Positions 37,971-62,859 of a DNA stretch of 64,000 nt are shown here, in pieces. The stretch comes from Romanomermis culicivorax. Lineage: Eukaryota > Nematoda > Enoplea > Mermithida > Mermithidae. The stretch covers positions 434,001-498,000 of the forward strand of contig CAWUHX010000215.1 of assembly GCA_963922205.1 (NCBI GenBank). Direction: 5' to 3'. The notes under the pieces were generated by a model, which had not been told where the DNA came from, did no database searches, and worked only from the letters and a program-made list of their open reading frames with translations. Position 1 is the first letter of the stretch, and every line of letters starts with the position of its first letter. The position numbers and the translations under genes were made by a program.

Positions 37971-38000
37971 CAGTACAACAAAATACGGAGTGATTCAATC

Positions 38001-38069
38001 TAACTGGGATGGTATATTGTACAACTGTCAGGGTCTAACTGGGATGGTATATTGTACAACTGTCAGGGT
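38001..38069 (-). repeat. Tandem duplication spanning the A/B junction
   Basis: The 35-bp unit 'ctaactgggatggtatattg' plus 'tacaactgtcagggt' occurs twice, at about 38000-38034 and 38035-38069. It includes flank of B and the first nine bases of A's LTR, so the duplication arose after A inserted. The two possible continuations share CTAA, a 4-bp microhomology. Confidence 0.9.
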
Positions 38070-39038
38070 CTAAGTTCTATGAAAGAAAACTAGGTAGGAG
38101 TACTGTAAGGATAACACAATTTGATATGCAGGTATTTGGCCCCTGAATACTTATGTCCTTGGGTAGTTTAACAAGTGGATTGGTAATTTTAAGATTTATT
38201 GGAAACTTATCAAATTTAATATAGACTAGTACATACTTGGAAATAAATAGGGCGTGAACCTATTCTTCGGGTACTGTTGGCGGTACATATTTATAATATA
38301 ATAATAATATAGAGAAAAAAATGAATAATATAAGTAAATTGACGAAATAAACTGTTTTAATGATATGAAATCGAACTGAGGATACTGAACACGAACTGAA
38401 CGGCACACTGGACCATGAACTGAACTAGAATGGACTGAACAGGAACTGAACTGAGGATAAGAGTTACAGGCTCTAATATACAGCTTTTCATGCTAGATTG
38501 GTTTAATTAACTTCTGCTATCTTATCTTTTGATTAATGTTTGTTTTTGTTTATTTCACACCATATGTGTGTGCTCTAGCAGGAGCAAAGGTTACTGTATT
38601 TTTATCTAAGAGGTCTAGGCAATTATTTGCCTCTTTTGACCCATCTGCTTCCCTTTCTGGTAGTTCATCTTGTTTTAGGAGGCCTGTGTTTAAGATCGGC
38701 CATAACTCCCATTTATTTTATACAACATATATTTTTGGACCCTCAGAGGATTCCATATGGTTGGAACCTTTTGATACTTACTTTGTACAGTATTTTTATT
38801 TTCCACTGAACGGAAATTTCAAGGTTCATTAGGTTTACAAGTTATCTTTGGAGATTAGGTTTGCATGATTGATAATATTTTCAGTTTGGTTCCATATGTG
38901 CAAAATTTAAGTGAAGCGATAAAAATTAAGATAATAATAAAATAACTACAGTAGGAATTGACTTGAATCACGAAATTTACATGCTTTTCTCACAAAAACT
39001 ACTAAAATTTATGTTTGAATTTTCACTTTTGCTTGACA
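38061..39038 (-). repeat. Element A 3' LTR
   Basis: Ends TGTCAAGC... and ...CCCTGACA in the element's sense, with short inverted termini TGTCA/TGACA. About 976 bp match the LTR at 47862-48837. The integrase stop codon lies inside its first 16 bases. Open frames on either strand are not genes. Confidence 0.93.
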
Positions 39039-40237
39039 TTCCTCTCCTTCTTGAATTGAACGTCCTCGTTCATTTTGGGACTTCTCAAATTGTACCTGAT
39101 TTCATGCTTCATTGTTCTATCTTTGTTAGTTTGTATTTTGCCACATTTGTTGGATGGTCCTTTTATAATTTGGGGCGTCCATCCATAATAAGGCTTTGTT
39201 CGGTTGACATGAATTACTTCCACTCCATTGGTTCGTGTGGGATTTTCTATCTCCAGATTTGGATAATTTATTGCCTTCACTTTATAAGGCCCTTCATAGA
39301 TAGGCATTAGTTTCTTTATGAGACCTTTTTTGATGATCTCCAATTCTTTCAAGACTAGGTCATTTACTCTATAGTCCACATTTTTTGTCTTTTTGTCATA
39401 CACCTTTTTGTATGCACTTTGTGCCTTTTCTATTTGTTCCTGGACTATGTTCAAAGCCATAGTGAAGTGTTTCTTGACCTCTGCATCATAAGTAGCCAAG
39501 TCTAAGAAATATAGAGGTTGTGTATGATTGATGGCCACATCAATAGGCAATTTAGGAACTCACCCATATATTACTTCAAAAGGTGAGAATTGTGTGGATG
39601 CGTTTGTATGTATGTTGGTGGAAAAGACTGCATAAGGCAGGTGTTCATCCCAATCAGTTTGGTTTTTGTCTACATACATTCTAATTCTTGTGGCAATTGT
39701 TTGATTAGACCTTTCTACTTCTCCATTAGCAATAGGATGGTAGGCAGTAGTATGTATCTTGTGCACACCCATAAGCTTTGTGATTTCTTTCATAAGGTCA
39801 GATGTAAAATTGCTTGCCCTATCAGATTGTAGTATTTGTGGTGCTCCATGTCTACAAACTATTTTTGTGATGAAGATTTTAGCAATAGTTTCTGCTGTTA
39901 TATTAGGTACAGCAAAGGCTTCTACATATTTTGTGAAGTGATCAATGAAGACAACTATGAATCTGTTTCCATTTTCTGTCATAGGTAGTGGTCCCATACA
40001 ATCTACAGTAATTCTATCAAAAGGTCCACTTGTTAATATTGGCTTCAGATTTGCTTTAATTTTGTGTCGTACTGGTTTATTTATTTGACATTTTTTACAC
40101 ATTTTACAATAGAGTTGGACATCTTTGTGCAAAGTATTCCAGTGATAATGTTTTGAAATCAGTTGTATGGTTTTCTTTGCACCAAAGTGTCCAGCTAATT
40201 CATCATCATGATTAGATTCAATAATTAATTTCTTCAT
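39023..40237 (-). pseudogene. Element A integrase, one internal stop
   Basis: Frames 40237-39560 and 39550-39023 are the same reading frame separated by a TGA at 39560-39562 where B and C have Cys. Zinc-binding His residues and YCKMC are followed by catalytic D79 (TVDCMGPL), D139 (LQSDRASNF) and E175 (NGEVERSNQT), all intact. The C-terminal region contains 'YRVNDLVL' and 'GPYKVKAIN' strands typical of Ty3 integrases, then a basic tail. The stop codon falls within the 3' LTR. Confidence 0.88.
39039..39060 (-). promoter_or_regulatory. Polypurine tract of element A
   Basis: In the element's sense, AAGAAGGAGAGGAA ends directly at the LTR start TGTCAAGC. It primes plus-strand synthesis in this class of elements. 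Here it is also coding, for 'KKERN' of integrase. Confidence 0.85.
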
Positions 40238-40239
40238 TG

Positions 40240-40824
40240 ATTGCGGGATTATTATTTTTTTATCCCATTTTTATTAAGAAATAATATTTCACTTTCAAGA
40301 CAAAAGGATTTTACATGTTCTGAAGGTAAGCAACCTTTTCTTATGTTATTTATGACCTCTTTAAGTTCAGGATCATTTTGTTGCAAAGATTTAAGATCAA
40401 TTTCCTGGTGATCAGTGTTCAGACAGACAACACCATTATCTTTTACAGAGGGTCCATAATTTTCCTCATTATCAATATCATAAGATTGTTTAGCAATAGG
40501 ATTAGGATTTCTAGAAAGTGCATCAGCATTGGCATTTTTGGACCCTTTTCTTGGTCCAATATTAAGTTTTGTGCCAGCTAAAGCACAACCCCATCTGTTT
40601 ATTCAAGCAGATGCATTTTCTTTTTCTAACACTGCTTTGACTGCAGTGTGGTCTGTTTCTACTATAACTTCTTGCTGATAGAGATAGCATCGAAAATATT
40701 TTACAAATTCGACAACAGCTAGAGTTTCCAATTCAGTTATTGGATAATTTTTCTCAGCTGGTTTAAGAGCTTGAGATGCAAAAGCAATAGGATGTTCCAG
40801 ATCATCCTTCCCAATTTGACTCAA
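40240..40824 (-). pseudogene. Element A RNase H and connection to integrase
   Basis: RNase H features: 'EGIGAVLSQIGKDD' (preceded by TDAS beyond a stop), 'TELETLAVVEFVKYF', 'VETDHTAVKAVLEKE'. A TGA at 40603-40605 interrupts before 'INRWGCALAG'. The connection region (40600-40240) continues with 'NADALSRNP', the usual end of Ty3 RNase H, and a tether of low conservation. Confidence 0.82.
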
Positions 40825-40857
40825 TACTGCACCAATTCCTTCTTTTGATGCATCAGT

Positions 40858-41637
40858 TTAAAGTATAAACTGTTTTGTAAAGTCAGGATGCATAAGTATT
40901 GGTTCTTGCATCAACTTCTTCTTTAATTCTTCAAAGGCTTTATTTTCTCTTTCTTCCCATTTAAAGTCTTGTCCTTTCTTCAATAGTTTGGTCAATGAGT
41001 TTGATATTTGTGCACATTTAGGAATGAATTTTCTGTAATAGGATATGACGCCTAAGAATGATTTTACTTCTTTTACATTTTTAGGTGGCATCATATTTTC
41101 CACTGCTTCAATCTTTTTAGTATCAGGTTTAATACCATCTTGACTTATGATATGACCAAGATACTTGACTTCTTTTTGTGAGAATTTACATTTATCTATT
41201 CTTAATTTTAAACCACCCTCATGCAATCTGTCAAGGATGATCTTCAGATGATCAAGCATTTTCTTGTGATCCTTTCCAAAAACTAATATATCATCCAGGT
41301 ATACCAAACAAATGTTCCATTGTAAGCCTGATAATAGTAGATCCATAAGTCTTTGGGATGTTGCAGGAGCATTGCATAGCCCAAATGGAAGATAGTTGAA
41401 TTCAAAAAGACCAACATGAGTAGTGAAAGCTGTTTTTTTATCTTCAGGTGAGATTGGTATAGTCCAATAAGCATTAGCTTGATCCAAAGTGGTGAAATAT
41501 TTCATATTACTTAAGGTGTCTAAGATGTCATCAATTCTTGGTAATGGGTAGACATCTTTCTTTGTTACTGAATTGAGTTTTCGAAAATCTATACACAATC
41601 TATGGCCTCCATCTTTTTTTTCGTACAAGAACAACAT
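40858..41637 (-). pseudogene. Element A reverse transcriptase, main part
   Basis: 259 residues covering RT motifs from 'KKDGGHRLCIDFRKLNSVTKKDVYPLPRIDD' through 'LFEFNYLPFGLCNAPATSQR', YLDDILVF (catalytic pair intact), 'GGLKLRIDKCKF' and 'SFLGVISYYRKFIPKC' to 'HPDFTKQFIL', then a TAA at 40858-40860. Its start overlaps the 41600-43825 frame by 38 nt at an A8 run; the two frames join there by a 1-nt shift, most likely an indel in the homopolymer. Confidence 0.88.
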
Positions 41638-43825
41638 TTGTTGACCAAGGTGATGTACTTTTTGAGATTATTCCTTTTTCTTCCAATGCTTTAATTTCAG
41701 CCACAATTATTTCTTTCTCTTTTGGAGCAGTTCTGAACGGGTAATTTCTGATTAGTAAACTTTCACCTGTTATAATCTTGTGGTGTACCAAGGTTGTTCT
41801 GCCAGTATCTTTTTTGTCCAGAGCATACAGATCAGGATATGCTTCCAATAAAGCAAACAGATTTTGCTTTTCTTCTTCAGGTAGGGATTGTGGTACAATC
41901 ACATTTTCTCTCAACCATTGCTTTGTTACCAACCTATGTTCATGTTGAGTTTCTTGAGCTGATTTGAAGCACTTGACATTTCCCAGTTTGGAATTCTTGT
42001 ACAAAGTTAGAGGTTCATCACTGGTGTTCATTGCTTGAAATGGAATAGTTTTGTTTTCCACATTAGATACCAATGATGCAAAATAAGGTTGATTTCCTTT
42101 GAAGCATAATGAAGGTTCAAATTGTACTTCAGGAATGTGTTCATACAAGGTAGAGATGCAACCTGTTAAACAAACTATGGATTGAGGTGGAATAACAACA
42201 TTTTCACTCAAGTAGACTCCACCATGTAATGCTATCGGTACATGTACCATACCAATGCAAGGAATTGTTTCATTTCTGAATTTTACAAATGATTTCTCCC
42301 ATGAGAGAGTAATTTGATTAAATCGGCCAAAGAAATTAGTGCCTAGTATTAGATCGGCAGTACAATTATCTTGTACATGAAGGAGTATGGTTTCTTTTAC
42401 ATCTGCAACTTTTATTGTGATATATATAGCACCTTTGATTTGTATTTCTAATCCATTTGCTGCAATCAGCTTGGTTGCAGTTTTTATCATTGAAATGTCA
42501 TCAAGTTGAGAGACAAGACTGGAATCAATAAGAGAGTACACAGCTCCAGTATCTAAGAGAGCTAGAACTGGAATTTTTCCATTCAACAAAACTTTCATGT
42601 AAGGAGTCCGTTTTTGACTGGCGATATAATTTATTGCAACTTGTGTTTCAATCACTTCATGAAAATCAACTTGATCTTTCTCTTTTTCATATTTTGAAAG
42701 AAATGGAATTTTTCGTTTTTTACTCCTAATGTGAGCAAGCTTGAGAAGATTTCGTCCTAGGGGTAATTCATCTGCACTTGCAGGGCTAGATGATTTTCTA
42801 ATGAGCTTAGCTTTATATCGCAGCAAGCATATGTAAGCAATATATAAAATGGCAAGAAGGATAAGACAAACAATAAAAATATTGCAGATAAGCTGTACAG
42901 GCCCACGTAATAAGTTAGTAAAAGTATCTACAAAATTTCTTTGAGAATCATAGACCATATGTCCAAAAAATTTACCAGCAGATGTTAATCCATTTTTAAT
43001 ATCAGGACTTGTATCAGATAGTGCCTGATACAAAGTTTGTGGATTAAGTGACATAGAAGTAGCATAAGAGATCATCTTTCCCAGCATTGTCTCTATTTGC
43101 TGTGTCTTATATATGTACTGTTTCAAGAAGATAATTTCATTTGATGATTTTGACAGCTTATCATGAAAAAGAGCAGGAGTGTCAAATTGATAAATATTAG
43201 TATGTCCTTTCCAATTTAATTCTATAGGGATTTCATTCACATAGGTGATACCAGATTTAGTTATCCAAGTATTATTTTTCCTAAAAATTCCTACAGTGTG
43301 ATGCTGACAATCTACTTGAGGACTATAATCAGTAAGATCATTACTTCCAGGAGAAACAAACATCAGATTTCCCATGTATCTAATGGGTACATATTTATAA
43401 CAGACATTGTCTACTTTGTAGTTGTAGAAAATTTCTGTGACATTAATTTTCATGCATGGCCATACTGTGAGTGCTTCTCCAGTAAATTCTGCAATAATGT
43501 CATCTCTTTGCAAGAAGGCGCGGGCACCCATAGTACTATCAAAACGTAACATTTGCCAAATATGATCAACATATCTTTGCACATATCGACACATCTCAAG
43601 CCAAACATGGCGAAAATTATCCATTTCATTTTTGAAGATTTTAATCTCCAAAAAATTCAATTTGGCATTAACCGGATCAGCTGTTTGTGATCTAAAAAGA
43701 GAAATTCTTATTCTGTCTTCTGAAACCTGGTGTATCTTTAAGAGAATACCTTGTGGAGTTCCCAACACATTTTGAATGCTTGGACATCTTCTGTATGCAG
43801 AACCCAATTTGAAAGCACCTTGCAA
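41600..43825 (-). pseudogene. Element A fused envelope C-part, protease 2 and RT start
   Basis: One uninterrupted 741-codon frame. Residues 1-345 are the C-terminal two thirds of the glycoprotein, with conserved 'ADPVNAKLNFLE', 'CRYVQRYVDHIWQML', a helical 'FLKQYIYKTQQIE' region and a transmembrane segment (about 310-337) followed by a basic cytoplasmic part. Residues 405-520 are a retropepsin (D425-T-G, closing 'LILGTNFFGRF'). Residues 620-741 lead into RT ('LVHHKIITGESLLIRNYPFRTAPKEKEII...STNVVLVRKK'). The fusion of a membrane glycoprotein to protease-RT without a stop is the striking feature. The frame is broken at both ends by 1-nt shifts. Confidence 0.88.
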
Positions 43826-43833
43826 ATCTTCGA

Positions 43834-44634
43834 TTATGACAAAAGTTGAACTGAGTATAGCAAATAATTTCCTTTAAAAACATAAGGGCATATATCAGTT
43901 ACATTCCTTTCATCCCAAATAATAGTGCCATCAGGTGTGTTGCATTGGCCTGCCATAGCTTTACAGCCACCAGCATCACTAAGGTCAGTAAGCATATTTT
44001 CTCCGTCCCAACTAGCCACTTGACCTTGTTCAATAATCAGGTTTGTTACAGTTGTGCATATGTCTTTACAGCACCATTCAAAAGAAGGTGAGAGACTGTT
44101 ATTAGTTGACCAAAGTTTATTTCCTATTCTTTTCAAGGATTGATGGGAATAGAATTTACTTTCAAATACATTTTTGCACTCAGTTGCACTAATTTGTTCA
44201 CTCTTTACTGGCTCTTGAATTATGGTTTTTGATCCAAAGAATCCACTATTAGTGCATAACGTTCTTGAACGTTTTAGACATTTGTATGCTTGAGAAAGTT
44301 GAGGTTCTTGCCGCAGAATGTAAACAGATACATTCAAATGAGATACTGATGCAAGCTTTTCAGGAGCAATGCATTTCATAGTTTTTGGAATACTAATTGC
44401 ATGTCCACTTCTAGATGTTCCACAAATCTGGAACTGGGGGTGACATTTTATTGGAATGATTAAATAGTTCAGTAAGATTAAAAGAAACATTATATAAGTG
44501 AAGTATTTTACATAAATTAAGATAAACGAATCATGTGACAATGATTTTTGTGCACTTCTTTTGCTTTTCTCTGCATTTCCATTGCAAAATAAGACTGCTT
44601 TGTCATTCTGTGACTTAAATAATAACAAATTCAA
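43834..44634 (-). pseudogene. Element A envelope-like glycoprotein, N-terminal part
   Basis: 266 residues: a polar leader, a hydrophobic signal or signal-anchor (about 46-64, YIMFLLILLNYLIIPIKC), then a Cys-rich ectodomain with 'FQICGTSRSGHAISIP', 'LCTNSGFFGSK', 'FEWCCKDICTTVTNLIIEQGQ' and 'AGGCKAMAGQCNTPDGTIIW'. The pattern is shared with B and C and looks to me like class III glycoproteins of mononegaviruses, chuviruses especially. It is interrupted by a frameshift near 43855-43875, after which the same protein continues in the 41600-43825 frame. Confidence 0.82.
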
Positions 44635-45709
44635 AAAGATAAGAAGGAAATAAGAGAGAAAGTTTGTAGTTTTTTAATGTTTAAAGCGTAACACTTTTCT
44701 TCTTCAATTTGGTTGATATAACCTTGGGCTTCCTCCTGTAAACGAGCTTTTTCCGCTGAATCTTTCCTGGTCTCCAGCTGATGTTTGATCAGCCCATACA
44801 TTGTACCCAATTTGATCATAGGCCAGGTATATGGGTAATCTTCGAAGCCATCCAGAGTTTCGAACAGCTAACTCTGATGTTCCATACTAGTTTTTGGTGT
44901 CAAGTCACCTTCCTCTGCTGGATTGCCTAAGTTTTCAAATCCACTTCATATCCACAAGTAACTCCATAGGTCTCGAGGACAGAAGTTTCAGCTATTTTTG
45001 CTTCAGATTCAGGAGAAGCATAATCAGGAATAGCTCTATAAGTATTTGAAGTCACTGGAGCACATAGCATGCCAACAGGAATAGATTTAAATGTGATCAT
45101 AGAGTTCAACCAATTAAATTGGACATTTTCGAAATTAGACAGGAAATTTGAACCCAAAATAATTTGAGCTAGAGCTTTCTTTTGAATATATACCAAAAGT
45201 TTTATGTCAACATCTTCAACTTTTATGTTTATATAGGCTGACCCTATCAAATCAATCTTTCGTCCATTTGCTGCCATTAATTGAATATTAGTCCTCAGAA
45301 TTTGTACTTGAGGAACTTTTTGGATGATTTCCAAATCAACTATAGATAAGACAGCTCCAGTATCAATTAAAGCATAGGCTGTGCTGTGATTATTTAAAAG
45401 AACTCTTACATAAGGAACTCTACTACTGAAATGATCATTGTACCACGAAATCGGGCAGATCAAAATCTGAGTTGGTTCCTTACTCTTATCTTTCGATACT
45501 TTCATTTTCGGAATTTGTTTCTTTGTTGCCTCATCACTGAATGAATTTTCTTGAACAATCAATGGTTCCTGAACAGCATTCGACAAAACCAAATCCTGTG
45601 CAATGACTTCAGTTGCACGAATCGGGATGTGATTGGAGTGTGTCAAAACGAAGTTTTCGGCTGATGATTGTGAAACCATCTGGGGGTCCTCATCAGCATT
45701 TTCATGCAA
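44631..45709 (-). pseudogene. Element A first protease and following linker
   Basis: Frame 45709-44927 is a retropepsin: 'RVPYVRVLLNNHSTAYALIDTGAVLSIVD' with catalytic D116-T-G, 'YINIKVEDVDIKL' and 'QIILGSNFLSNFENV'. It is clearly similar to the second protease of the same element (both start PY..VLLN and share DTGAV.S..D). A small frame (44819-44631), rich in Glu and Lys, links it to the glycoprotein. Upstream the reading continues toward the zinc knuckles through a TGA near 45720. Confidence 0.83.
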
Positions 45710-46016
45710 AGCGTGTCATGGACAAAAACAACACGTGAAAACAGGAGCTGAATTTATAAATAAAGATTCCTCATGGTCACATGGTTCTTTAAGATTTTGG
45801 AGATTTTCATCATCACAATCAATGTTAGGAATATGATTTTGTTTGTCAATGCAAGTGACAATGTCATTCCTTACTGGAATTCTCATGTGAAAAGGTTTTC
45901 TACTTTCATTCTGTGGAAATTTTGATCCACGTCTCTCAAAATTATAAGTAGACTGTGAATTTCTTTGAGAAAAAGATTGATTCCGCGAACCATTTCTGAA
46001 ACTATGACTCTTACCA

Positions 46017-46272: not shown

Positions 46273-47271
46273 CTATTGGACAACAGCGCCAGCAACTCCA
46301 GCAACTAAATCTTCAAACTGAGTTGCTGTCATTTCTCGAGGGAATTGAATAGTATTTCTTTCTAAAGTATTACAGACTAAGTTGTTGGTGCTGTGTGAAT
46401 TTTGTAACTCATCCCTCATTATTTGAGATTCAATATATCTAGAAGCTTTAAGAGCATCTTCCAGAGACACAAATTCACGAAACTTCACAGCCTCTCTTAT
46501 ATCAGGAAAGAGTCCTCTCAAAAATATAGGTTTAATGATAGTTTCTCGAGCATGTTCAGTCAAATTTGGATATGCAAGTTTGCTCAGTTTTTTCAACTGA
46601 TCCAGAAATTCAATTACAGTTTCAGTACGCTTCTGTTTTCTATCAAATATGATTTGTTGGTGGACATCACTGTCTCTGTCTTCAGGAAATGCTCTCTTTA
46701 ATTCTGTTACAAAATCTGCATAACTTCTAGGAGGGTTCAGTCCCTTTTTGAGGCTCCTGAAAGTAGCTTGAGCAGATCCAATAAGATTAGATTCAAGAAG
46801 AGCAATTTTATAGATATCTGTTGAATTGGTCATCCCTTGCAGAGTCAAATACTGCTTAAATTTTTCAATCCAATCAGGAAAAGATTCTCCAATTGTACCA
46901 GAGAAACATGGAGGTGGTTTGAATGCAAACATGGAGTTAAAACAATATCCTGTCATTTTATTATCCTCAGCATTTTCATTAACTAAATGCCTTGTCTCAT
47001 CTAATTTTACATCAAGTCGATGCAATTGATCAGTCAGAGGATCAGCCATGTCCTTGAATGCTCTTTTTATAGCATTATCGAGTTCAGCTTCAGTCATTTT
47101 TGTGATTGACTTGAAATTTTTACGGCCAATTTCAATAAGAGCCGATTTTTTAGCTTCAGAAATAATCCTTTCAAAGTGCTGACTTTGAGTAAGCTTAGGA
47201 GTATTTTGTGTCAAAGATGAATATTCAGTTTCAGAATCAGAATCCACTGTACGTTTATGTGACGTTTTCAA
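46273..47271 (-). pseudogene. gag: Element A Gag (capsid part), ends at TAG before the knuckles
   Basis: 332 residues with the Ty3-type capsid region: 'FSGTIGESFPDWIEKFKQYLTLQG', 'LLESNLIGSAQATF', 'SYADFVTELKRAFPEDRDSDVHQQ', 'IEFLDQLKKLSKLAYPNL' and 'IIKPIFLRGLFPDIREAVKFREF'. The Ser/Thr-rich N-terminus has a KRTVDSDSE-type start. The stop TAG (46273-46275) is followed in frame by CAA CGG and the zinc knuckles, so it either truncates Gag or is a leaky stop. I list it as a pseudogene because the element has other breaks, but this frame itself is uninterrupted. Confidence 0.85.
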
Positions 47272-47379
47272 GAATTAGACCCAAACAACAATAAAACACA
47301 CTTGATTTTTCAAGTGAATAACAATAATTACACCATAATTGAGTGTGAAAAAAATTCATGCTCCAAAATACTCTCAGGT

Positions 47380-47861: not shown

Positions 47862-48837
47862 TGTCAGGGTCTAAGTTCTATGAAAGAAAACTAGGTAGGA
47901 GTACTGTAAGGATAACACAATTTGATATGCAGGTATTTGGCCCCTGAATACTTATGTCCTTGGGTAGTTTAACAAGTGGATTTGTAATTTTAGGATTTAT
48001 TGGAAACTTATCAAATTTAATATAAACTAGTACATACTTGGAAATAAATAGGGCGTGAACGTATTCTTCGGGTACTGCAGGCAGTACATATTTATAATAT
48101 AATAATAATATAGAGAAAAAAATGAATAATATAAGTAAATTGACGAAATAAACTGTTTTAATGATATGAAATCGAACTGATGATGCTGAACACGAACTGA
48201 ACCGCACACTGGACCATGAACTGAACTAGAATGGACTGAACAGGAACTGAACTGAGGATAAGAGTTACAGGCTCTAATATACAGCTTTTCATGCTAGATT
48301 GGTTTAATTAACTTCTGCTATCTTATCTTTTGATTAATGTTTGTTTTTGTTTATTTCACACCATATGTGTGTGCTCTAGCAGGAGCAAAGGTTACTGTAT
48401 TTTTATCTAAGAGGTCTAGGCAATTATTTGCCTCTTTTGACCCATCTGCTTCCATTTCTGGTAGTTCATCTTGTTTTAGGAGGCCTGTGTTTAAGATCGG
48501 CCATAACTCCCATTTATTTTATACAACATATATTTTTGGACCCTCAGAGGATTCCATATGGTCGGAACCTTTTGATACTTACTTTGTACAGTATTTTTAT
48601 TTTTCACTGAACCGAAATTTCAAGGTTCATTAGGTTTATAAGTTATCTTTCGAGATTAGGTTTGCATGATTGATAATGTTTTCAGTTTGGTTCCATATGA
48701 GCAAAATTTAAGGGAAGTGATAAAAATTAAGATAATAATAAAAACTACAGTAGGAATTGACTTGAATAGCGAAATTTACATGCTTTTCTCACAAAGACTA
48801 CTAAAATTTATGTTTGGATTTTCACTTTTGCCTGACA
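47862..48837 (-). repeat. Element A 5' LTR
   Basis: Second LTR copy with the same TGTCA/TGACA ends. The sequence just inside (47861 downward) reads 'aagttggcgaggctgc', so a primer-binding site starting TTGGCGAGGCTGC or TGGCGAGGCTGC, offset 3-4 nt from the LTR, is likely; the tRNA is not identified. Confidence 0.93.
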
Positions 48838-48841
48838 CAAC

Positions 48842-50668
48842 CCAGCATTGGACTCTGCAGAAAAGAACCAACAGGGAAAAGTGACTAGCAAACTGAACCT
48901 GCTTTTTCTGCAGGCGGTAGCTGAGATAGTGGGATATGCCAAGGTAGGCTAGATATCCAATACCGGCCAGCACTGCCAGGGTGACAAGGGTGTTAAAAAT
49001 CAACTGAACCGGTCCACTCAGGATGGACTGCAAGCCCTGAATGAGGTTGGGTTGTTGGCTAGTAATCACATAGTTTGCCACCAAACCAACACCTTCCAGA
49101 GAGGCCTTGATGTCAGTTCCTACCCCTGCAAAAGCCTGATAGAGAGCATCTGGTTGCAGGGATAGACCAGTGGTAAAGTTTACCAGCTGGTTTAAAACTG
49201 CTTCAATTTGCTCAGCCTTGTGAACATACTGTTTAAAGAAAGCAAAACTCGAAGGGGTTATCGCCAACTGATCACGGAATAGCACAGGAGCCTGAAAATG
49301 AGTGAGGTTGAAGCACTGCTTCCAATAGAGTTCAAGCGGGATGTGGCTCACATGGACCATGCCAGACTCAGTAAACTAGCCCGAGCCATTTCGGAAAATC
49401 CCCGTAAAGTGGTGATCACACCGCACTGTTGGGCTAAGTTTAATGAGGTCTGGGCCACCAGGGGTGACAAAGTAAATGGTACCGCCAACCTGCACAGGAA
49501 GATACTTGTAGCAGGTGTCTCCCACCGGATAGGAGTGGTAGACATACATGGCGTTGACCTGTTGACAGGGCAATATCCTCAGTGTGTCGCCTCTGAATCC
49601 CGCCGTCAGGTCATTCCTCTGAAGGAATGCCCAGGCACCTAAGATAGGGTCAAAGCAAAGCAACTGCCAAGTCAAATCGAGGTAGCATTGAGCATGAGAG
49701 CAAAGCTCAAGCCACATGAATAAAAAATTGTTAATGTCCAACTCCTTGATCTGCTGAGCCAAATAGTTTAGTTTGGCATTGACAGGGTCGGGATGTGAAT
49801 CCTTTGCCAATTTGAAAAAATTCTGGGTCAAATTAAATCTTCTCTGGATGCATAGAAGAAGATCCTTATCTGTCCAAATTGAGGTTGAACGTAGTTCAGG
49901 ACACAACCAGAAGACGCAAGAGTTTCCCAGGATCTTGAGGGCAACCCGAAGATCATCAATGATAACATGGTTCCCTGATATGGAGGCAGTGTAATTTCCC
50001 TGAGGGCAATAATGACACTGTGCTGTGAAATTTGTAGCAGGCCAGACAATGACCCCATCAAAGGTGGTGCACTGACCTGCAGTGGGACTGCATCCATCTA
50101 CATCTCCTAAGGTGCTTAGAGCTGTAGTGCCATTCCAAGAAGGGATTTGTCCCTCTTCAATGAAGAGGTTAGTCACTGTCTTGCAGACATCACTGCAGCA
50201 TCATGTGTACATCACGTCCAGCATTTGGTTTATGCTATAAAAGCCAGGGCGAATTTCCACAAGCTTTTGTAAACCAAACACCTTAGTGTGATGTGCTAGC
50301 ATACAAGCCGCAGGCGCTAGATGCTGAGTAGTAATGATGTCCGCCGTGATGCCCCTAGAGCCAAAGAAATCAGTGTTGGTGCAGACTTTATGGTTACATA
50401 ATGTGCATTTCCATGCTAATGTAGTGATTGGATCAGAACTAGGAACATATACTGTGACATTCATGCATCGTGGACTCCATGAAGATTTTGGTGGTTTACA
50501 CTCTACTTCTCGAGGTAGCTCAAGTGGATGACGACTTCTTGAAAGACCACAAAACTGGTATTGAGCAGCATGTGTTGCAGAACTCATTCCTAAGAACAGT
50601 AGTGTTACGAAGGTCCAATTTATTATGTACAAACTATTTACAAATGGCATCTGAAAATTTAAACCCAA
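48842..50668 (-). pseudogene. Element B envelope-like glycoprotein, broken
   Basis: Three frames (50668-50201, 50176-49376, 49360-48842, the last running into element A) give a complete glycoprotein outline: signal segment ('LYIINWTFVTLLFLGMSSATHA'), 'YQFCGLSRSRHPLELP', 'VCTNTDFFGSRG', 'CCSDVCKTVTNLFIEEGQ', 'GCSPTAGQCTTFDGVIVW', 'DPVNAKLNYLAQQI', 'FFKQYVHKAEQIEAVLNQL' and a C-terminal transmembrane stretch ('LIFNTLVTLAVLAGIGYLAYLGI'). Interrupted by a stop near 50200 and a TAG near 49376, a site where A has Trp. Homologous to C 56036-57862. Confidence 0.85.
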
Positions 50669-50790
50669 AATTCACAATTTTGGCCCGTTGGGCGGCATTA
50701 TTCTCCATCATCACTGGCCGATGATATTGGCTCCTTGCTGGGGAAGTTGAGGACCAGGCCCCTGCACAGGTGGAATTAACAAATTGGTGA

Positions 50791-52276: not shown

Positions 52277-52288
52277 TTCGGATTGTAA

Positions 52289-53060
52289 TCACCAAATTTT
52301 GTGTGATGGCATCGATGACAATTGTTGAGCATTGCCCTTTTGAATTGGCATGATGGGATTGAATCTAGCAGTTTTCTGTTCTGAAGAGAAAACAGCATTA
52401 TATGGTGCAGTATACTGAATATTATCCTGAAAAATCTGGGATTCTGCATAACAGGCTGCCTTAAGAGTCTCTTCAAGAGTTGTAAACTCCCTGAACTTAA
52501 TACTACCTAGGAGGACTGGTCTCAGCTCCCTCAGAAAGATAGGTTTTATAATTGAATCTCTGATGTCTGTGGCGAGATCTGGATAAGCCACCCTGGATAG
52601 TCTCTTAAGGTGCTCAAGATAAACTATTGCTGAGTCAGTCAACTTCTACAGGCGATCTTGGATCAGCTGCTGATGTAGATCTGAGTCACGCTCTACCGGA
52701 AAGTCTTTCCATAGAAAAGCCATAAACTCTTTGTAGCAGGTAGGCTGTGGAGTATCACTGCTAAAGTCCCAGTAGGATGCAAGAGGGGGACCTGTAAGGC
52801 CAGACTCCAAAAATGTGATTTTATATGCATGATCCATTTTGCTTACACCTTGAAGTGTAAAGAAACGGGTCAAGTGGGATATAAAATCAGTTATAGCCTG
52901 ACCAAAAGTACCCGAAAAGGCAGGAGGGGCCATGAAGCTGGACACAGGAGCATGCCTCTGACCACTCATAGCCTCCAACTTTTGGTTGAGAGGTCCAAGG
53001 GCATTCTCAAATGCAGCTTGTACCTTGTTCTCAATCTGTAATGGGGGAGGGTGGCTAAGA
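52289..53060 (-). pseudogene. gag: Element B Gag, broken
   Basis: Frames 52978-52646 and 52642-52289 are one reading frame split by a single TAG (52646-52648). Similarity to A's Gag: 'PPAFSGTFGQAITDFISHLTRFFTLQG', 'ITFLESGLTGPPLASYW', 'YKEFMAFLWKDFPVERDSDLHQQ', 'VYLEHLKRLSRVAYPDL' and 'IIKPIFLRELRPVLLGSIKFREF'. Upstream the frame extends to about 53050 before another break. The 5' leader and LTR are not recognised. Confidence 0.83.
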
Positions 53061-54955: not shown

Positions 54956-54964
54956 GGGCATGCA

Positions 54965-55954
54965 ATGCCAGTCACCATGGACCCCTCGACGACACCGCAG
55001 TTTGTTGGTCAGGCTAACATCCTAGCATCGTATTGCATCCCAAAAACTACGACTGCGGAGCCAGCTCCAGCCACCAATGCGACATCTTCGGCACCATCCA
55101 CCGGCATCGTCACTCAAGGACCACCGCCGGGGATCTCTACGGATTCGGCTATGGAAGTCATTGACCAGGTTGAGCCGATGAACTTGACAGGTATCCTACC
55201 TTTTTCTTCCGGTGATCCTAGAACAGGAACTAGAAATCTATCTCAGTCCACGACTCTATCGATTTCTTGTTCACAGCACCATCACCCGTCCAAGACGCGA
55301 TGTTGGCCATCTGGTCAGTTGACCTGGCTAAGAAATACCTGCACTTGCCCTGGACACTGCTCAACGAGCGGTCGCAAGTCGAAGCGCTCACAGCTGCTGA
55401 TGTGGTGCTGGTGGCACCTGTATCAATGCGACTCTTATGACCCGACATCCCCGGATGGGCACTCGAGTTCATCGCCAATGGAACTATCACAATCTTGCCC
55501 GTCGAGAAGTTCTTATTGGTTGGGGAACCATCCTCGCCCACAGTCGATGCCGTCCACCGTGCAGTCAAACAGGCCAGTCCGATCCTCCTGCCTGCTGTCG
55601 CCGCTGCACCATGGACAGCAGCGCCTCCTGTTGCCGCTACACCACCAACTGAAACGGTCACCATTGCATCCTCGCCTCTTACAAAGGACCCAGCAACTGA
55701 CCCAACACCACCGGCAGCAGCCCAAGAAACATCGCTGGCAGCAGCCCAAGACATATCACCTGCACCAGCCCAAGACACATCTCCGACCGCTGCGACCGAG
55801 TCGCCTGTTGTGGAACCCATGGCTGTCGATGAGACTTTACGTCCGGTTAATGAGGATGTTAGCATTATTGAGGAATCACCGTTCCCAACGGCAGTCGCCC
55901 CACGGTCGCCAAAGATCGGCATCCTCCGGGAAATCCACCCATGCTGAGAGTTGA
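54965..55954 (+). pseudogene. Element C middle frame, two frames, product unknown
   Basis: The start frame (from 54965) carries 'TQGPPPGISTDSAME' and 'EPMNLTGILPFSSGD'; the conserved reading then shifts by about 55225 to another frame that includes '[29 protein letters not shown]', a TGA near 55436, and 55495-55947 with '[19 protein letters not shown]' and '[18 protein letters not shown]'. A Pro/Ala/Thr-rich stretch with 'AAQ..S.APAQDTS'-type repeats lies between. Homologous to B 50791-51922. No domain recognised. Confidence 0.65.
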
Positions 55955-56035
55955 TCATCATCTTCCCCAGTCAGGAACCCATCTCGTCTGACAGCAACGA
56001 AGAGGAAATCTGAAAATGCCCATCGGGCCAGATCT

Positions 56036-57862
56036 GTGAAAATGTGTGAACATTTACAAACCACGTTTGTACAGTTGTCTTCGCTAATAAAATTGACCAT
56101 AGTAACATCACTGTTTCTAGGGGTGAGTTTGGCAGCACCTGCGGCTCAGTATATATTTTGTGGTCTCTCAAGAAGCGGACACCCACTTGAGTTACCCCAG
56201 CATGTAGAGTGTAAACCACCGCAATCTTCATGGAGTCCACGAGGCATGAACATTACAGTGTATGTCCCTAGCTCAGACAGGATTACAACCACAGCGTGGA
56301 AATGTACACTGCGCAGCCGCAGAGTCTGCACCAACACTGGTTTCTTTGGCTCTAGGGGCATCACTACAGACATCATTACCACTCAGCACTTAGCACCTGT
56401 GGCCTGCATGCTAGCACATCGCACTAAAATGTTTGGCTCACAAAAGCTTGTCGGTATCCACCCTGGCTTTTATAGCACAAACCAAACATTGGAAGTGATG
56501 TAGGAATGGTGCTGCAGTGACATCTGCAAGACAGTGACTAACCTCTTCATTGAGGAGGGACAAATCGCTTCGTGGGATGGCACTACAGCTCTAAGCACCT
56601 TAGGGGATGTAGGTGGATGCAGTCCCACCGCAGGTCAGTGCACTACCCTAGACGGGGTCATTGTCTGGCCTGTACAAAACTTCACCCCGCGGTGTCATTA
56701 TCACCCCAAGGGAAATTACACTGTATCCATGTCAGGGAACCACGTCATCATCGATGATCTACAGGTTGCCCTCAAGATCCTGGGAAACTCCCGCGTCTTC
56801 CAACTGTGCCCAGAACTACGTTCCACCACAGTCGGGACTGATCAGGGTCTTCTCCTAAGCATCCATGGAAGATACAATTTGACCCAAAACATGTTCAGGC
56901 TGGCAAAGGACACACATCCCGATCCTGTCAATGCCAAACTGAACTATCTGGCTCAGCAGATCAAGGAGTCAGAAATTAACGGTTTCCGGTTCATGTGGCT
57001 TGAGCTCTGCTCTCACGCTCAATGCTACCTTGATCTGACTTGGCAGTTGCTTCGCTTCGACCCTACATTGGGTGCCCAGGCATTCCTCCAGAAGAATGAC
57101 CTGATGACGGAATTCACAGGCGATGCACTGACAATATGGCTGTGTCAAAAGGTCAACGCCACCTACATCTACCACTCGTACCATGTGGGAAACGTCTGCT
57201 ACAAGTACTTAACCGTACAGGTTGGCGGCACCATCTATTTCACCATCCCGCGTGGTCAAGAACTCATTAAATCTAGCCCAGTTGTGCCGTGTCACCACCA
57301 CTTTACAGGGATTTTAAGAAATCGCTCGGGCTGATTTACTGAGTCTGGCACAGTCCATGTGAGCTACATCCCACTGGAACTCTTCTGGAAGCAGCGCTTC
57401 AACATCACTCACTTCCATGCACCAGCGCTCTTCCATGACCAGTTGGCGATGACCCCTTCAAACTTTGCCTTCTTTAAACAGTACGTTTACAAGACTGAGC
57501 AAATTGAAGTGGTACTAAACCGGCTGGTAAACTTTACTGCTGGTCTATCCCTGCAACTGGATGCCATCTACCAGGCTTTTGCAGGGGTAGGAACCGACAT
57601 CAAGGCCTCCCTGGAAGGTGTCTGTTTGGCAGCAAACCATGTGATTACTGATCAACAACACAACCTCGTTCAGGGCTTGCATGCTGTCCTGAGCAGGCCG
57701 GTCCAGTTGATCTTTAACACCCTAATTACCCTGACGGTGCTGGTCCGTGTCGGATACCTAGCCTACCTTGGTGTATCTCAATATCTCAGCTACCGGGTGC
57801 AGAACAAACAGGTCCAGTTTGTTAGCCGCTTCTCCCCGTTGGGTCTTTACCGCAAAGTCTAA
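56036..57862 (+). pseudogene. Element C envelope-like glycoprotein, two internal stops
   Basis: Frames 56036-56503, 56534-57334 and 57359-57862. Signal peptide (about residues 16-32, 'IKLTIVTSLFLGVSLAAPA'), Cys-rich ectodomain ('FCGLSRSGHPLELP', 'VCTNTGFFGSRG', 'WCCSDICKTVTNLF', 'GGCSPTAGQCTTLDGVIVW'), sequons (MNIT, QNFT, GNYT, VNATY), then 'FKQYVYKTEQIEVVLNRL' and a transmembrane segment near the end ('LIFNTLITLTVLVRVGYLAYLGV'). Stops: TAG 56501-56503 and TGA 57332-57334; the latter is the codon where B has TAG and A has Trp. It lies before pol, not after integrase. Confidence 0.87.
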
Positions 57863-57883
57863 TGCTGGATTGGTTTTCACTAT

Positions 57884-58411
57884 GTGCAAAACGATATGCC
57901 GTCCCAGCTCGATCGAATCACACTGTGTTTGGTAGTACTATTGGATACTAAGGAAACTCCTGCTTTCCTCGATATGGGTTGCCCCCGCACTATCATTAGC
58001 CAACGTCTTCACAAGGCCTTGGCCAAAGAAAGTCCGAAGGGGGTCATGGCGTTCCAGCAACATCACGACTTCAACCCATTGATGAGCATCAATGGTAAAG
58101 CCGTTCATATTATCCTTTCGGGACCATATGAAATCATGTTGCCCGGAAACCGCCAGCCAAACACACCGATCGATATACATCTCCATGTGTGCAAGACTAC
58201 GTCTCCTTTCTGGGCACCTGTTGACCTAATACTTGGACTGGACTTCCTAGAACAGTTTAAGAACATTATGTTTGACTACCAACGTAATGTTTGTCGGCTG
58301 GACAGGGTAGAATTGCCCCTCCTCCTGACGACGCCAGAGATTGACCAGATCGACCCCTGGTGGGAGAACACACCTTCACTATCAAGGAACTCACACAGGT
58401 CAGGATCATGA
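57884..58411 (+). pseudogene. Element C first retropepsin-like domain
   Basis: Begins 22 nt after the glycoprotein stop. 'ETPAFLDMGCPRTIISQRLHKAL' corresponds to B's DTGC, so the catalytic triplet here is D-M-G, a change expected to impair the enzyme. The closing 'VDLILGLDFLEQFKNIMFDYQRNVC' is conserved. The frame is lost after 58411, and a shifted linker leads to the next protease. Confidence 0.78.
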
Positions 58412-58534
58412 TCAGGGTCCAGGGCTTCGTCCATCTCTCAGCCTCACTCACGGGCCTTTTCAGTTGCCTCATCATGTGGGTCAAGCAGGGGATACTGGAC
58501 TTCATCCAGGCATGCAAGTCGTCATCCGTCAACC

Positions 58535-60613
58535 ATGCAAGGGTCAGGTTGCCCTCGACCCCCACCTAGAAACTCTCCAGTTACGCTAGAGAAAAGCCGA
58601 TTCTGTGAGCCAAGTGATTCAGATGCCCCGGCATCCCCTGTCCTGAACGTGCCAACACTATCAGACACCGAGATTGAATCACTAGGAGCTACTCAGAGCC
58701 CATGGGACTGCTCAGACCATGTACTCACAGTACAGGATGAGTCAACCCTTCTAAATGACCCGGACCCCTCCATCGGATATGCTCTAGTAGGTCTACTACG
58801 TCATACAGGACTGCCGATTCCAAAGCGGTCCAGTAAGACTAAACACACTAGGGGTGCCACCACAGCTGATTCAAGTCATGTGGTATCCGCTTTCTATTCA
58901 AATGATATTTGGACACCCCATATCAAAGTTCTCCTCAACAACTGGGTGGAAGCAAAGGCACTGGTCGACACAGGAGCTGTTTTCTCACTCCTGGACCGCA
59001 AGTTAGCGGCCAAGCTGCCCAACTTGACCCTCACACCAACTAGGGCTCGTTCTATCCCAGCCAACCGGTCCCCAATCCCACTGCTAGGAGCAGCCTACAT
59101 CACGGTAACAGTGGCTGATGTCTCTGAACGGATTCAGGTCCAGATACAGGAGAACTGTTCAGCTAAACTGGTCCTCGGAACAAACTTCCTCAGATGGTTC
59201 AATTGTGTCAGCTTGAACTGGGAGAAATCCTTTCTCCAGTTCAAGGAGAGTAAAATCCCCTGTGACGGTCTCATCCACAGCCCACCTTCTGCTCGTGGCG
59301 CCTTGCCCCTGGAGGACTTCGTGGTTCTTGAGCCTCACTCGCTGACACAATTTACTCTACCTGTACAGCCAATCTATACGAAAGTACCCAAGGTGGCCTT
59401 CTTCCCAAAGCACCTCACGGGATCTCACGGAAACGTATATTTTGCTGGGAGCGTGAGTAGCATGACAGATGGTCGCATACCACTTCATGTAGTAAACCCG
59501 AATACTCATTCAGTTGTTCTCTACCCGCACATGACCATCGGTCATGTGCAGATGCATAGTGAGTCCTCACAGGGATCACCAGTGAACTCAGACACCGTCC
59601 TCAATCTTCAATGGGTCGAGGCCAATGCTGTAATTTCACCGGACATCTCCCCTCGGGACCAGGCCGCCTTACTCCACCTACTGGTTGCATACACTGACCA
59701 TTATGCTCTTGATGAAAAGGACACAGGTTCCACTGATCTCATCCAGCATGAAATCAGCACGGGTGATGCCCGCCCAGTCCGCCATTTTCCTTACTGGTCC
59801 TCACCTAAGGAAAAGGATCTCATCATGCAAGAGGTCAAGGCACTCCAGGAGAAAGGTATTATCTGGCTGAGCACGTCACTGTCGGCTGCTAATACTGTCC
59901 TGGTGCCCAAGAAAAACGGTTCTCACCCTATGTGTCTTGATTTTCATGGTCTTAACGAGGTCACGAAAAAGGATATCTATCCTCTCCCATGGATAGATGA
60001 CATCGTTGACACACTCAAGGGTATGAAGTACTTCACTACCCTTGATCAGGCTAACACCTATTGGTCAATCCTGATTGCAGAGGCAGATAAAGAAAAGACG
60101 GCATTCAACACACCCATTGGACTTTACAAGTTCAATTACTTGCCTTTCAGTTTGTGCAATGCACCAGGGACGTTCCAGCGCCTCATGGACCTTCTCCTTA
60201 CAGGAATCCAATGGCGCATGGTTCTGATCTATCTTGATGACATTTTGGTGTTCGGGAACTCTCACACCCAAATGCTTGAGCAGCTGGCAGATGTGTTCGC
60301 CCGTCTTTGCCAGGGTGGAATGAAGCTCAGACTGAGCAAGTGCAAATTCTCACACTCGGAGGTAGAGTACCTAGGCTATCCTATCTCACAGAGCAGCTTA
60401 GAACCAGACAAAGTCAAGCTGGCCGCCGTTCAAAATCTTCCCATTCCACAGAACACCAAAGACATCAAGTCCTTCCTCGGCCTCATGTCTTACTACAGGC
60501 GTTTCATCCCTGGTTGTGCCCAGCTCAGCGAGCCACTAACCAAGCTCTTACCAAAGGAAATCACTTTCCAGTGGTCCAAACCTCAGCAGGAGGCATTCGA
60601 CAAACTCAGCTGA
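58535..60613 (+). pseudogene. pol: Element C second retropepsin and reverse transcriptase
   Basis: 692 codons open to a TGA at 60611-60613. Acidic Ser/Pro-rich N-part, then retropepsin with D145-T-G-A ('VLLNNWVEAKALVDTGAVFSLLD') and 'KLVLGTNFLRWF', a long spacer, and RT with 'CLDFHGLNEVTKKDIYPLPWIDDI', 'YKFNYLPFSLCNAPGTFQR', intact YLDDILVF, 'GGMKLRLSKCKF' and 'FLGLMSYYRRFIPGC', ending in the thumb/connection. Longest open frame of C. Confidence 0.88.
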
Positions 60614-61333
60614 TTGCTGACCAACCGTCCTATCCTGCGCCACCCGGACTTCTCGAAATCCTTTATCCTCCAGGCCGACCCAAGTATTTCAGGGATAGGA
60701 GCGGTTCTAAGCCAGTTAGACGAATTCGGATATGACCATCCTATTGCATACACCAGCCGAGGGTTAACAGCGGCCGAGAAAAACTATTCCATTACAGAAC
60801 TGGAAACTCTCCCCATTGTCCATTTTGTCAAGCACTTTCGGCCATACCTCTTCCAGCATGAGGTGGTCATTCAGACTGACCATACAGCGGTCAAAGCAGT
60901 GTTGGAGAAGCTTAACCCCTCTGCTCAGATCGATCAATGGGGACTTGCGCTCGCCGAATTCAAACTGACAATTTGGCCGCCAAAAGGTCGGTCTAACGGT
61001 AATGCTGACGCATTATCACGCCTGCCGGATCTCACATCCCTCACGGGTCAGAGTATTGATGATACTCCCCTTTACAGACCTGAGGGACATATCATGATGA
61101 TCACTGATGGTGTGCAGCACCTGGCGAGATCAAGAACTATGACTGATGGTGTGCAGCACCTGGCGCGATCAAGTACTTCAGCACCGATCACTGCTGGCGG
61201 GGAGCGCCCAGTACGATCTGAGAATTATGCCGAGATATCGGTTGGTGTGCAGCACATCGACATTCTCACTGCTCAGCTGGATGATCCCCAATTAGCCGCC
61301 ATCATTCGCTCTCTTAAGCCCCCGGGTGACTAG
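60614..61333 (+). pseudogene. Element C RNase H and tether
   Basis: Continues in frame after the TGA: 'FILQADPSISGIGAVLSQLDE', 'TELETLPIVHFVKHF', 'QTDHTAVKAVLEK' and 'GNADALSRLPD' show the RNase H acidic residues and its end. A partly tandem 'ACTGATGGTGTGCAGCACCT' unit (about 61099-61165) lies in the tether. Stops at a TAG, 61331-61333. Confidence 0.83.
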
Positions 61334-61339
61334 AGTGAT

Positions 61340-62611
61340 GTGCCAGGCTACCATCTGTTGGATAACGTCCTTCAGAAGTGGACAGACGAGTCCAACAGGA
61401 TTGTCATACCTAGATCCATGGTTACTACCATTATCCGGGCTCATCATGATGACATCTTAGCTAGACACTTTGGTGCTAAACGTACTGCGCGGCTCATTGC
61501 TCGCAGATACCACTGGCCTTCCCTCATTCGGGACGTCAAGTCCTTCTGTCAGCGGTGTGATCTTTGCCAACAGAATAAGCCCGCTCGACAGAAAACCACT
61601 GCGACCCTGAAACCCATCACCATCACGGGACGGTTTCATCAGGTAGGTGTCAACTGTATGGGACCAATGACCACTAGCGAAGCTGGCAACAGTTTCATTG
61701 TAGTCTTCATCGACTACTTTACGAAATGGGTCGAAGCTTTTGCTACTCCAGATATCACTGCGCACACCATAGCCTGACTGTTTGTAACGCTAATTGTCTG
61801 CTGGCACGCTGCACCGCAGATTCTTCAGTCCAATCGTGGCACTGATTTCACATCAAAACTGATGACTGAGATCACTTTGATCTGTTCAATGAAGAAGATC
61901 TACTCTACCACCTATCATCCCATGACCAACAGCGAAGTAGAGAGAGCTAATCAGACGCTAGCTACACAGCTATGTATGTATGTTCACCACGGACATACGG
62001 ATTGGCATGAACACCTACTGTACTCTGTGTTTGCTGTCAATATGGGCATGAATGAGTCAACAGGGTACTCCCCCTTTGAACTCATGTATGGTCACACACC
62101 CATGCTCCCTGTTGACGCCCCGCTCTCATTCAACCCTCCAGCCCATATCATTAATGTTTCCTCATATGATAAGGAGGTCAAACGTCATTTCACGAATGCA
62201 TTGACCTCAATCCAGAGTCAGATTGAGAAAGCACAGGAGGCCTATGCACGGTCTTACGACGGGAGGGCACAAGATGTCTCGTACAAAATAGGGGATCAGG
62301 TGCTCAAACTGTGCACTTCCAGCAAATGTGGGCTCACCCCTAAATTGCTGCCCATTTAGGATGGGCCCTATCTTGTAACAAGTGTGGCATATCCCAATGT
62401 CACACTTCGCCTCGAGATGGATCAGGAAGACACCGTACATGTCAACCAGCTTCGACCTTACATGTCCCCTGACCCACCGAGTGAAGCAGAGGATACACCT
62501 CCCACTTCGCAGGCAGCTGATTCGGCACCCTTGTTGTTTCTTTCAACAAGTCGGGACTTTACACTGAATTTGATTGATCCACATCTTGATGCAGAGGTCC
62601 TCCACCACTAA
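61340..62611 (+). pseudogene. Element C integrase, broken and catalytically altered
   Basis: Segments 61340-61777, 61862-62359 and 62384-62611. Zinc region 'HHDDILARHFGAKRT...FCQRCDLC' is kept. The first catalytic Asp reads Asn (VNCMGPM; A and B have VDCMGPM/L) and the second also (QSNRGTDF; A and B have QSD), while 'NSEVERANQT' keeps Glu. Stops: TGA near 61775 and TAG 62357-62359. C-terminal 'YKIGDQVLKL' and 'VTLRLEMDQEDTVHVNQLRPY' are typical of Ty3 integrases. Confidence 0.85.
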
Positions 62612-62858: not shown

Positions 62859-62859
62859 C

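Follow-up and report, generated by a model that had tools for sequence, protein, structure and literature searches.

A 64,000-nucleotide (nt) stretch of the Romanomermis culicivorax genome (assembly GCA_963922205.1, contig CAWUHX010000215.1, positions 434,001 to 498,000 of the forward strand; hereafter the window) contains three long terminal repeat (LTR) retroelements, designated A, B and C, in each of which a gene for an envelope-like glycoprotein lies ahead of the regions encoding reverse transcriptase (RT), RNase H and integrase. A, B and C are members of one Ty3/gypsy-type (Metaviridae) LTR lineage. The domains protease, RT, RNase H and integrase follow one another in that order, and the RT is nearest to Ty3-type RTs; LTRs that end in TG and CA together with a target duplication of 4-6 bp were found in A alone. 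Domains were mapped with profiles searched against the six-frame translation of the window, with X at stop codons. The elements or their relatives went into the mapping profiles, whose E-values show position rather than independent proof; matches to Pfam are independent. The features of element A, in the order of its genes, are as follows.

47862..48837, minus strand: 5' LTR, 976 bp, 97.2% identical to 38061-39038, ends TG..CA, flank CAAC
46276..47274, minus strand: gag capsid open reading frame (ORF), PF03732 (Retrotrans_gag) 7.3e-8, PF19259 (Ty3_capsid) 1.4e-7
45116..45424, minus strand: protease 1, upstream of the glycoprotein, PF13975 7.4e-8, lineage protease profile 1.4e-44 (a profile that includes protease 1)
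43852..44490, minus strand: N-terminal part of the glycoprotein, with its own ATG at 44490 and a hydrophobic leader, 38.5% identical over 200 aa to the metagenome protein P0123 (see below)
42674..43873, minus strand: C-terminal part of the glycoprotein with the membrane anchor, PF24664 3.4e-17, PF06208 1.6e-7
42305..42616, minus strand: protease 2, PF13975 2.2e-7
41140..41839, minus strand: RT, split over two frames, PF00078 (RVT_1) 8.6e-33
40567..40959, minus strand: RNase H, profile 4.6e-56, with stops at 40860 and 40605
39068..40261, minus strand: integrase, PF17921 (integrase zinc domain) 2.1e-20, PF00665 1.6e-10
38061..39038, minus strand: 3' LTR, 978 bp

The LTRs of element A were identical at 951 of 978 aligned positions, ended in TG...CA, and carried the 4-bp target duplication CAAC at both flanks. 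The LTR pair and the shared CAAC flanks therefore indicated that A was inserted as a single unit and that everything between the LTRs belongs to it. The insertion lies within an older minus-strand element, B, parts of which remain on both sides. Between the LTRs of A the order is gag, protease 1, glycoprotein, protease 2, RT, RNase H, integrase. The 3' LTR starts 29 nt past the integrase match and the integrase ORF enters the LTR by 16 nt (39023), so that no gene lies behind the integrase. The profile matches to the glycoprotein (44550-43852 for the N-terminal part, 43897-42674 for the C-terminal part) are separated by a frame break, and the N-terminal part matched no Pfam family when taken alone. 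The 18-nt junction, which consists of ACAAC and the first 13 nt of the LTR, occurs once more 35 bp outside the LTR of A, at window positions 38021-38060.

Element B was read on both sides of the insertion.

52364..52972, minus strand: gag, A-gag profile 9.3e-48
48872..50665, minus strand: glycoprotein, one frame with two internal stops, PF24664 6.4e-11 on 49376-50200
37602..37994, minus strand: protease a, divergent and retropepsin-like, next to the glycoprotein before A was inserted, 77% identical to that of C, lineage protease profile 0.017, no Pfam family
36695..37003, minus strand: protease b, lineage profile, with Pfam PF13975 at only 0.011 on the piece 36773-37198
35542..36239, minus strand: RT, profile map
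34963..35343, minus strand: RNase H, profile map
33660..34581, minus strand: integrase, profile map

Element C lies on the opposite strand.

56042..57844, plus strand: glycoprotein (ATG at 56042, leader, ectodomain, anchor), PF24664 2.7e-11 on 56504-57334, stops at 56501 and 57332
57917..58312, plus strand: protease a, by alignment to that of B, with Pfam PF09668 at only 0.25
58907..59215, plus strand: protease b, PF13975 1.2e-5 (slightly below cut-off), profile map
59696..60391, plus strand: RT, in the frame of the C glycoprotein, PF00078 1.4e-25
60572..60967, plus strand: RNase H, PF17917 4.2e-31
61397..62476, plus strand: integrase, same frame, PF17921 4.9e-21, profile map

The order in B is gag, glycoprotein, the A insertion, protease a, protease b, RT, RNase H and integrase, and from the glycoprotein onward C has the same order. 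Pfam gave nothing significant for the two gag pieces of B, the profile map of the window revealed no gag capsid match for C, and no LTR pair of B or C was found in the window. B and C form one family, with 74.5% and 78.8% DNA identity over their two longest blocks, and A represents a different one, with about 58-62% DNA identity to B and C over the blocks recovered in pol and the glycoprotein. B and C also have in common about 1 kb behind the integrase that holds no recognisable gene (62476-63459, plus strand, in C; 32580-33660, minus strand, in B) and is perhaps a 3' untranslated region and LTR, but upstream no partner for such an LTR was found.

The original prediction, made from the nucleotide sequence alone, placed an envelope-like gene between gag and pol in A and B and ahead of pol in C. 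The profile map and the Pfam PF24664 matches bore this out for A and B, and C has its glycoprotein before pol, with no gag found. The predicted position ahead of RT was likewise borne out, as was an integrase running into the LTR of A; in A, protease 1 lies between gag and the glycoprotein. B reaches beyond the predicted range of 38061..62611. The Monjiviricetes type of the glycoprotein, the two retropepsin-like domains of each element and the purifying selection on the glycoprotein were not part of the prediction.

The identity of the glycoprotein was assessed with Pfam. All three elements exceeded the curated cut-off of 27 bits for PF24664 (Monjiviricetes_fusion), with 62.1 bits for A, 41.4 for B and 42.6 for C, and so did the metagenome proteins P0121 (60.2) and P0123 (61.6). 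A also matched the Borna disease virus G family (PF06208, 1.6e-7), and the match of C to this family fell below the cut-off. Several pieces had no significant Pfam match when taken alone (43834-44673 in A; 55955-56503 and 57335-57862 in C; 50201-50671 and 48776-49375 in B) and were assigned by alignment to one another and to P0123. A retroviral, baculoviral F or rhabdoviral G origin was rejected, as no such Pfam match occurred among the glycoprotein pieces. The glycoprotein profile A5 found no sequence match in the PDB, and no second glycoprotein was found behind an integrase in the window by profile.

The glycoprotein and pol were then compared for reading frame. In A, a stop-free ORF of 757 aa (41600-43873) runs from the C-terminal half of the glycoprotein via the anchor (residues 332-350) and protease 2 (427-517) into RT. 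In C, the 6.4 kb from 56042 to 62476 contain 8 stops in the coding frame vs 103 and 113 in the other two frames, and B is open at the junction of glycoprotein and protease up to the insertion point of A. The A ORF, the C frame and the open junction of B thus suggest that the ancestors of both families most likely carried glycoprotein and pol as one ORF. The original prediction had left it open whether the glycoprotein would be part of the pol product or made just before it; at the level of the reading frame, the answer is part of it.

Relatives were sought in protein databases. In two of the protein searches the 8000 candidates sharing most words were scored, which left 2672 and 1334 proteins at the cut-offs, and the best 120 of each were examined (234 different proteins). 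A recognisable glycoprotein was found in 2 of the 234 proteins listed, P0121 and P0123, both of which are included in the profile; Pfam independently detected the domain in each (1.3e-16 and 4.8e-17, respectively). A protein search with the glycoprotein alone gave 1225 candidates, none significant, and profile scans of viral contigs found no relative. The three relatives informative for gene order are listed here.

P0121 (1750 aa; JGI contig of 8629 nt): glycoprotein 53-264, anchor 378-396, protease 469-557, RT 792-952, RNase H 1015-1143, integrase 1241-1412
P0123 (1424 aa; JGI contig of 6278 nt): glycoprotein domain 272-437, anchor 531-549, protease 635-726, RT 968-1128, RNase H 1191-1318, ending before integrase
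P0001 (1270 aa; JGI contig of 7955 nt): anchor-like segment 37-55, protease match below the Pfam cut-off, RT, RNase H, integrase

P0121 and P0123, known here from protein sequence alone, are uninterrupted predicted proteins that run from glycoprotein through RNase H and, in P0121, integrase. The glycoprotein region of P0123 aligns to A from residue 3, and the tail of P0121 behind the integrase gave no glycoprotein match. The order was therefore seen in the two families of the window, in large part in two metagenome proteins and in smaller part in a third.

To place these proteins, an RT alignment was built from the 234 proteins and five pieces of the window; 15 proteins with multiple RT hits and proteins with less than 90% column coverage were dropped, leaving 222 rows with the window pieces included, and the RTs of A and B were entered as partial rows (0.69 and 0.67 of columns). 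A, B, C, P0001, P0121, P0123, P0125 and P0226 formed one clade with FastTree (support 0.998; 71 sequences, comprising 11 chosen and 60 of the 94 non-redundant others), and the same clade was recovered with IQ-TREE (ultrafast bootstrap 100; 46 sequences, among them the 20 others closest to the set in similarity). By raw identity the partial RT of A was not cleanly separated, with 57-71% to clade members and up to 63% to others. Gene order cannot be read from P0125 and P0226, whose sequences begin past the protease. A profile that included the RTs of P0121 and P0123, and none of A, B or C, had its best match in the PDB to the Ty3 polyprotein 7q5b (4.9e-94), and matched retroviral RTs at best at 4.4e-36. 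The three elements and five metagenome proteins thus group together in the RT tree called for by the original prediction, and the common clade and the shared order in P0121 and P0123 agree with its claim that the order is a feature of a lineage comprising two families. An envelope gene behind the integrase, which would have spoken against that claim, was looked for in the relatives and none was found, P0121 alone having both glycoprotein and integrase.

An ATG precedes a hydrophobic stretch in all three glycoproteins (44490 in A, 50650 in B, 56042 in C). The best 12-residue window of this leader exceeded all ectodomain windows tested, its value being reached by 0 of 309 in A, 0 of 263 in B and 0 of 265 in C. 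Shortly upstream the glycoprotein frame is closed, the stop-to-stop ORF starting at 44673 in A, 50671 in B and 55955 in C. Immediately 5' of the B glycoprotein ATG lies a splice-acceptor-like sequence, TTTAAATTTTCAG. Near its end the glycoprotein has one anchor-like segment, with a hydropathy of 3.11 in A, 1.79 in B, 1.76 in C, 2.83 in P0121 and 2.67 in P0123, and the protease match starts 45-86 residues after the anchor in A, P0001, P0121 and P0123. A segment with hydropathy of at least 1.9 before RT was present in 6 of 165 proteins (among the matches listed, with at least 250 aa before RT), and three of the six are members of the lineage.

Selection on the glycoprotein was assessed from the ratio of nonsynonymous to synonymous substitution rates (dN/dS) between B and C, with codons that are a stop in either copy excluded. 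The ratio was 0.24 for the glycoprotein (bootstrap 0.20-0.30; 595 codons), and 0.18 for protease a, 0.25 for protease b, 0.12 for part of RT, 0.24 for RNase H, and 0.28 and 0.17 for parts of integrase. Shifted into the two wrong frames, this glycoprotein stretch gave 1.04 and 1.14. The value for the glycoprotein therefore indicated that, for as long as the family was active, selection maintained it as a protein with about the same strength as pol. Stops occur at the same aligned glycoprotein codon in B (49378) and C (57332); a shared ancestral stop or recoding signal was rejected, as the codons differ (TAG and TGA), and the two were treated as separate decay.

Taken at the level of gene order and frame, an architecture with the glycoprotein before pol and in frame with it is well supported by these sequences. 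How it would work is something we infer. An ancestor of the lineage may have captured its Monjiviricetes-type fusion glycoprotein, with a negative-strand RNA virus as the presumed donor; the captured gene would have come to head the pol reading frame rather than to follow the integrase. Judging from the leader and the upstream stops, translation would start at the glycoprotein ATG, on a spliced or internally initiated message, and not as Gag-Pol. The leader would direct the chain into the endoplasmic reticulum (ER), yielding a type I membrane protein with the ectodomain outside and with protease, RT, RNase H and integrase as a cytosolic tail. Pol would reach budding particles via the anchor, and the protease next to the anchor would free it at maturation. 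The other protease, which in A lies toward gag and in B and C next to the glycoprotein, would assist in processing Gag or the junction. That a Ty3-type lineage makes Pol in this way, as the cytosolic tail of a membrane glycoprotein and apart from Gag, is the best explanation of the data as a whole, and a probable one. We lean, with less assurance, toward the broader proposal that the whole lineage has swapped the Gag-Pol strategy for an Env-Pol polyprotein, with RT and integrase packaged as the tail of the glycoprotein and released by the protease.

Several observations weigh against this explanation. A, B and C are all decayed: B has stops, as has A (at 40860, 40605 and 39562), and A is further interrupted by frame changes that separate gag from protease 1, the two halves of the glycoprotein from each other, and RNase H from integrase, and that split RT. 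In C, one of the 8 stops falls between the anchor and protease a, at the junction of glycoprotein and protease. No ORF that spans everything from leader to integrase was observed, P0121 starting inside the glycoprotein and P0123 stopping before integrase. Leader and anchor were called from hydropathy and not with a dedicated predictor of signal peptides or topology; in a scan with 19-residue windows at 1.6, the leader of C was the only one flagged, the anchors of B and C reach only the values given above, and P0001 has a second anchor-like segment at 870-888. The stops upstream of the glycoprotein could be a product of decay, and protease a is weakly recognisable as a retropepsin.

The arrangement of the proteases bears on an alternative in which the glycoprotein segment is intron-like, the genomic RNA giving Gag and a glycoprotein message and the spliced RNA an ordinary Gag-protease-Pol, with the proteases of A as the duplicated edges of the segment. 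Proteases 1 and 2 of A, one on each side of the glycoprotein, are indeed 40% identical to one another. In the profile alignment protease 1 was 39% identical to protease 2, 35-41% identical to four of the five other main lineage proteases, 28% identical to the P0123 protease and at most 33% identical to those of other elements, and in a protease tree it grouped with the lineage weakly (0.55; 80 of 117 non-redundant others, gathered with a profile that includes protease 1). The P0123 protease was 28-37% identical to most of the lineage vs up to 35% to some others. These values fit, and do not prove, an origin of the two proteases of A by duplication when the glycoprotein entered. Splicing of env is moreover typical in insect Ty3 elements (PMC12992720). 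Set against the intron-like alternative, B and C have two retropepsin-like domains, both of them behind the glycoprotein, and none was found by profile on the Gag side. Protease a of this pair is diverged yet constrained (dN/dS as above), matches other proteases weakly (0.017 in B), and was not found in A with a protease a profile. The frame from anchor to protease is open in A, P0001, P0121 and P0123, and in B up to the insertion of A, which counts against the intron-like alternative because an open frame would be unneeded if the junction were never translated. We therefore regard this alternative as unlikely.

A second alternative accepts one glycoprotein-Pol ORF and has the product split at once by host peptidases in the ER or cytosol, with Pol free of the membrane throughout assembly and packaged via RNA or Gag. 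It has a counterpart in foamy viruses, whose Pol is made apart from Gag from a spliced mRNA and is packaged through the genome and Gag (PMC7828637). The conserved fusion would then serve expression alone, and the sequence decides neither way; we consider this scheme improbable. Chance or artefact, in which an endogenous viral glycoprotein landed in one element or the assembly is in error, might be suggested by decayed and nested copies, with A inside B, but is extremely unlikely given that A, the family of B and C, and two separate metagenome proteins all share the order, and given the purifying selection on the glycoprotein and the LTRs and target duplication that bound A. A nested-insertion or assembly artefact was rejected on account of the same order, without internal stops, in P0121 and P0123.

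The proposed Env-Pol arrangement was compared with known systems. Errantiviruses and other insect endogenous retroviruses likewise have gag and pol of the Ty3 type and a fusion glycoprotein acquired by capture. Their env forms the third ORF, after gag and pol, and is of the F type and typically spliced (PMC12992720), whereas here the glycoprotein is before pol and in frame: the integrase of A reaches the LTR, the glycoprotein lies upstream of protease 2 and RT, and Pfam identified PF24664 (with PF06208 in A and, below cut-off, in C) and no F-protein family. An env behind pol is also reported for roo, Tas and Cer-7 (PMC7642597). In PMC13172572 the coordinates of bait fragments run GAG, POL, ENV for An. 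stephensi and T. carbonaria; the ENV fragment of T. oceanicus precedes GAG and POL, these being fragments in a PIWI-interacting RNA cluster that need not belong to one element. Class III-type glycoproteins are known in gypsy and BEL/Pao elements (PMC13172572, PMC7642597, PMC10084718). Among the latter, the mosquito element Anakin resembles the present lineage in its captured chuvirus-related glycoprotein (PMC7642597; PMC10084718) and differs in its BEL/Pao pol, the RT here being Ty3-type; the parts of those papers covered state no fusion of env to the front of pol. TelKA of bdelloid rotifers is a retroelement whose fusion protein comes from negative-strand RNA viruses (PMC5408684), but this is a paramyxovirus-like class I F protein encoded as ORF3, downstream of pol (PMC5408684).

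The glycoproteins of Jingchuvirales and Bornaviridae resemble those described here through the PF24664 and, in A, PF06208 matches. In those groups the glycoprotein is a gene of an RNA virus and is not known to be joined to protease and RT. Foamy viruses (Spumaretrovirinae) carry Env behind pol. Their likeness to the present lineage, a functional comparison only, is that Pol is translated apart from Gag (PMC7828637); their Pol is a separate protein, unlike the glycoprotein-Pol frame found here. Troyka elements were rejected as relatives, as they encode no envelope in the part of the source covered (PMC12440569), and CERV of Cer1 was rejected as a precedent, not being an intervening gene between gag and pol of this kind (PMC10309623, same restriction). 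The literature searched, in the parts covered, held no env ahead of pol and fused to it, in a search that did not include the eLife 2025 metazoan survey (Chary and Hayashi), which may describe the lineage.

In the papers covered on retroelements that carry env, a position behind pol is the rule. The present lineage, whose glycoprotein precedes Pol and shares its frame, shows that the order of env relative to pol is not fixed. These results also widen the record of RNA-virus-type glycoproteins turned into retroelement envelopes. The Env-Pol proposal gives a testable alternative route for packaging RT and, if true, would add to Gag-Pol fusion and the RNA-bridged packaging of foamy viruses a third means by which Pol enters a reverse-transcribing particle. 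The uninterrupted relatives in public metagenomes make expression and processing directly testable.

Scans with Rfam, for tRNA, against PHROGs and phage records and of genome contigs found nothing useful. Elsewhere in the window, the region 17456-30218 (plus strand) holds an element that we take to be Maverick/Polinton-like. It encodes an integrase with a chromodomain (PF00665 5.9e-15, PF00385 1e-6), an adenovirus-type protease (PF00770 1.9e-4), a piece of DNA polymerase B (PF03175 5.1e-5, below cut-off), a packaging-ATPase-like ORF (below cut-off) and ORFs without a Pfam match, and some of its ORFs look broken. Within it, an ORF of 249 aa (23871-24620, plus strand) has a hydrophobic start and several cysteines, with a COBRA match of 0.011 that lies below the cut-off, and could encode a membrane or secreted protein.

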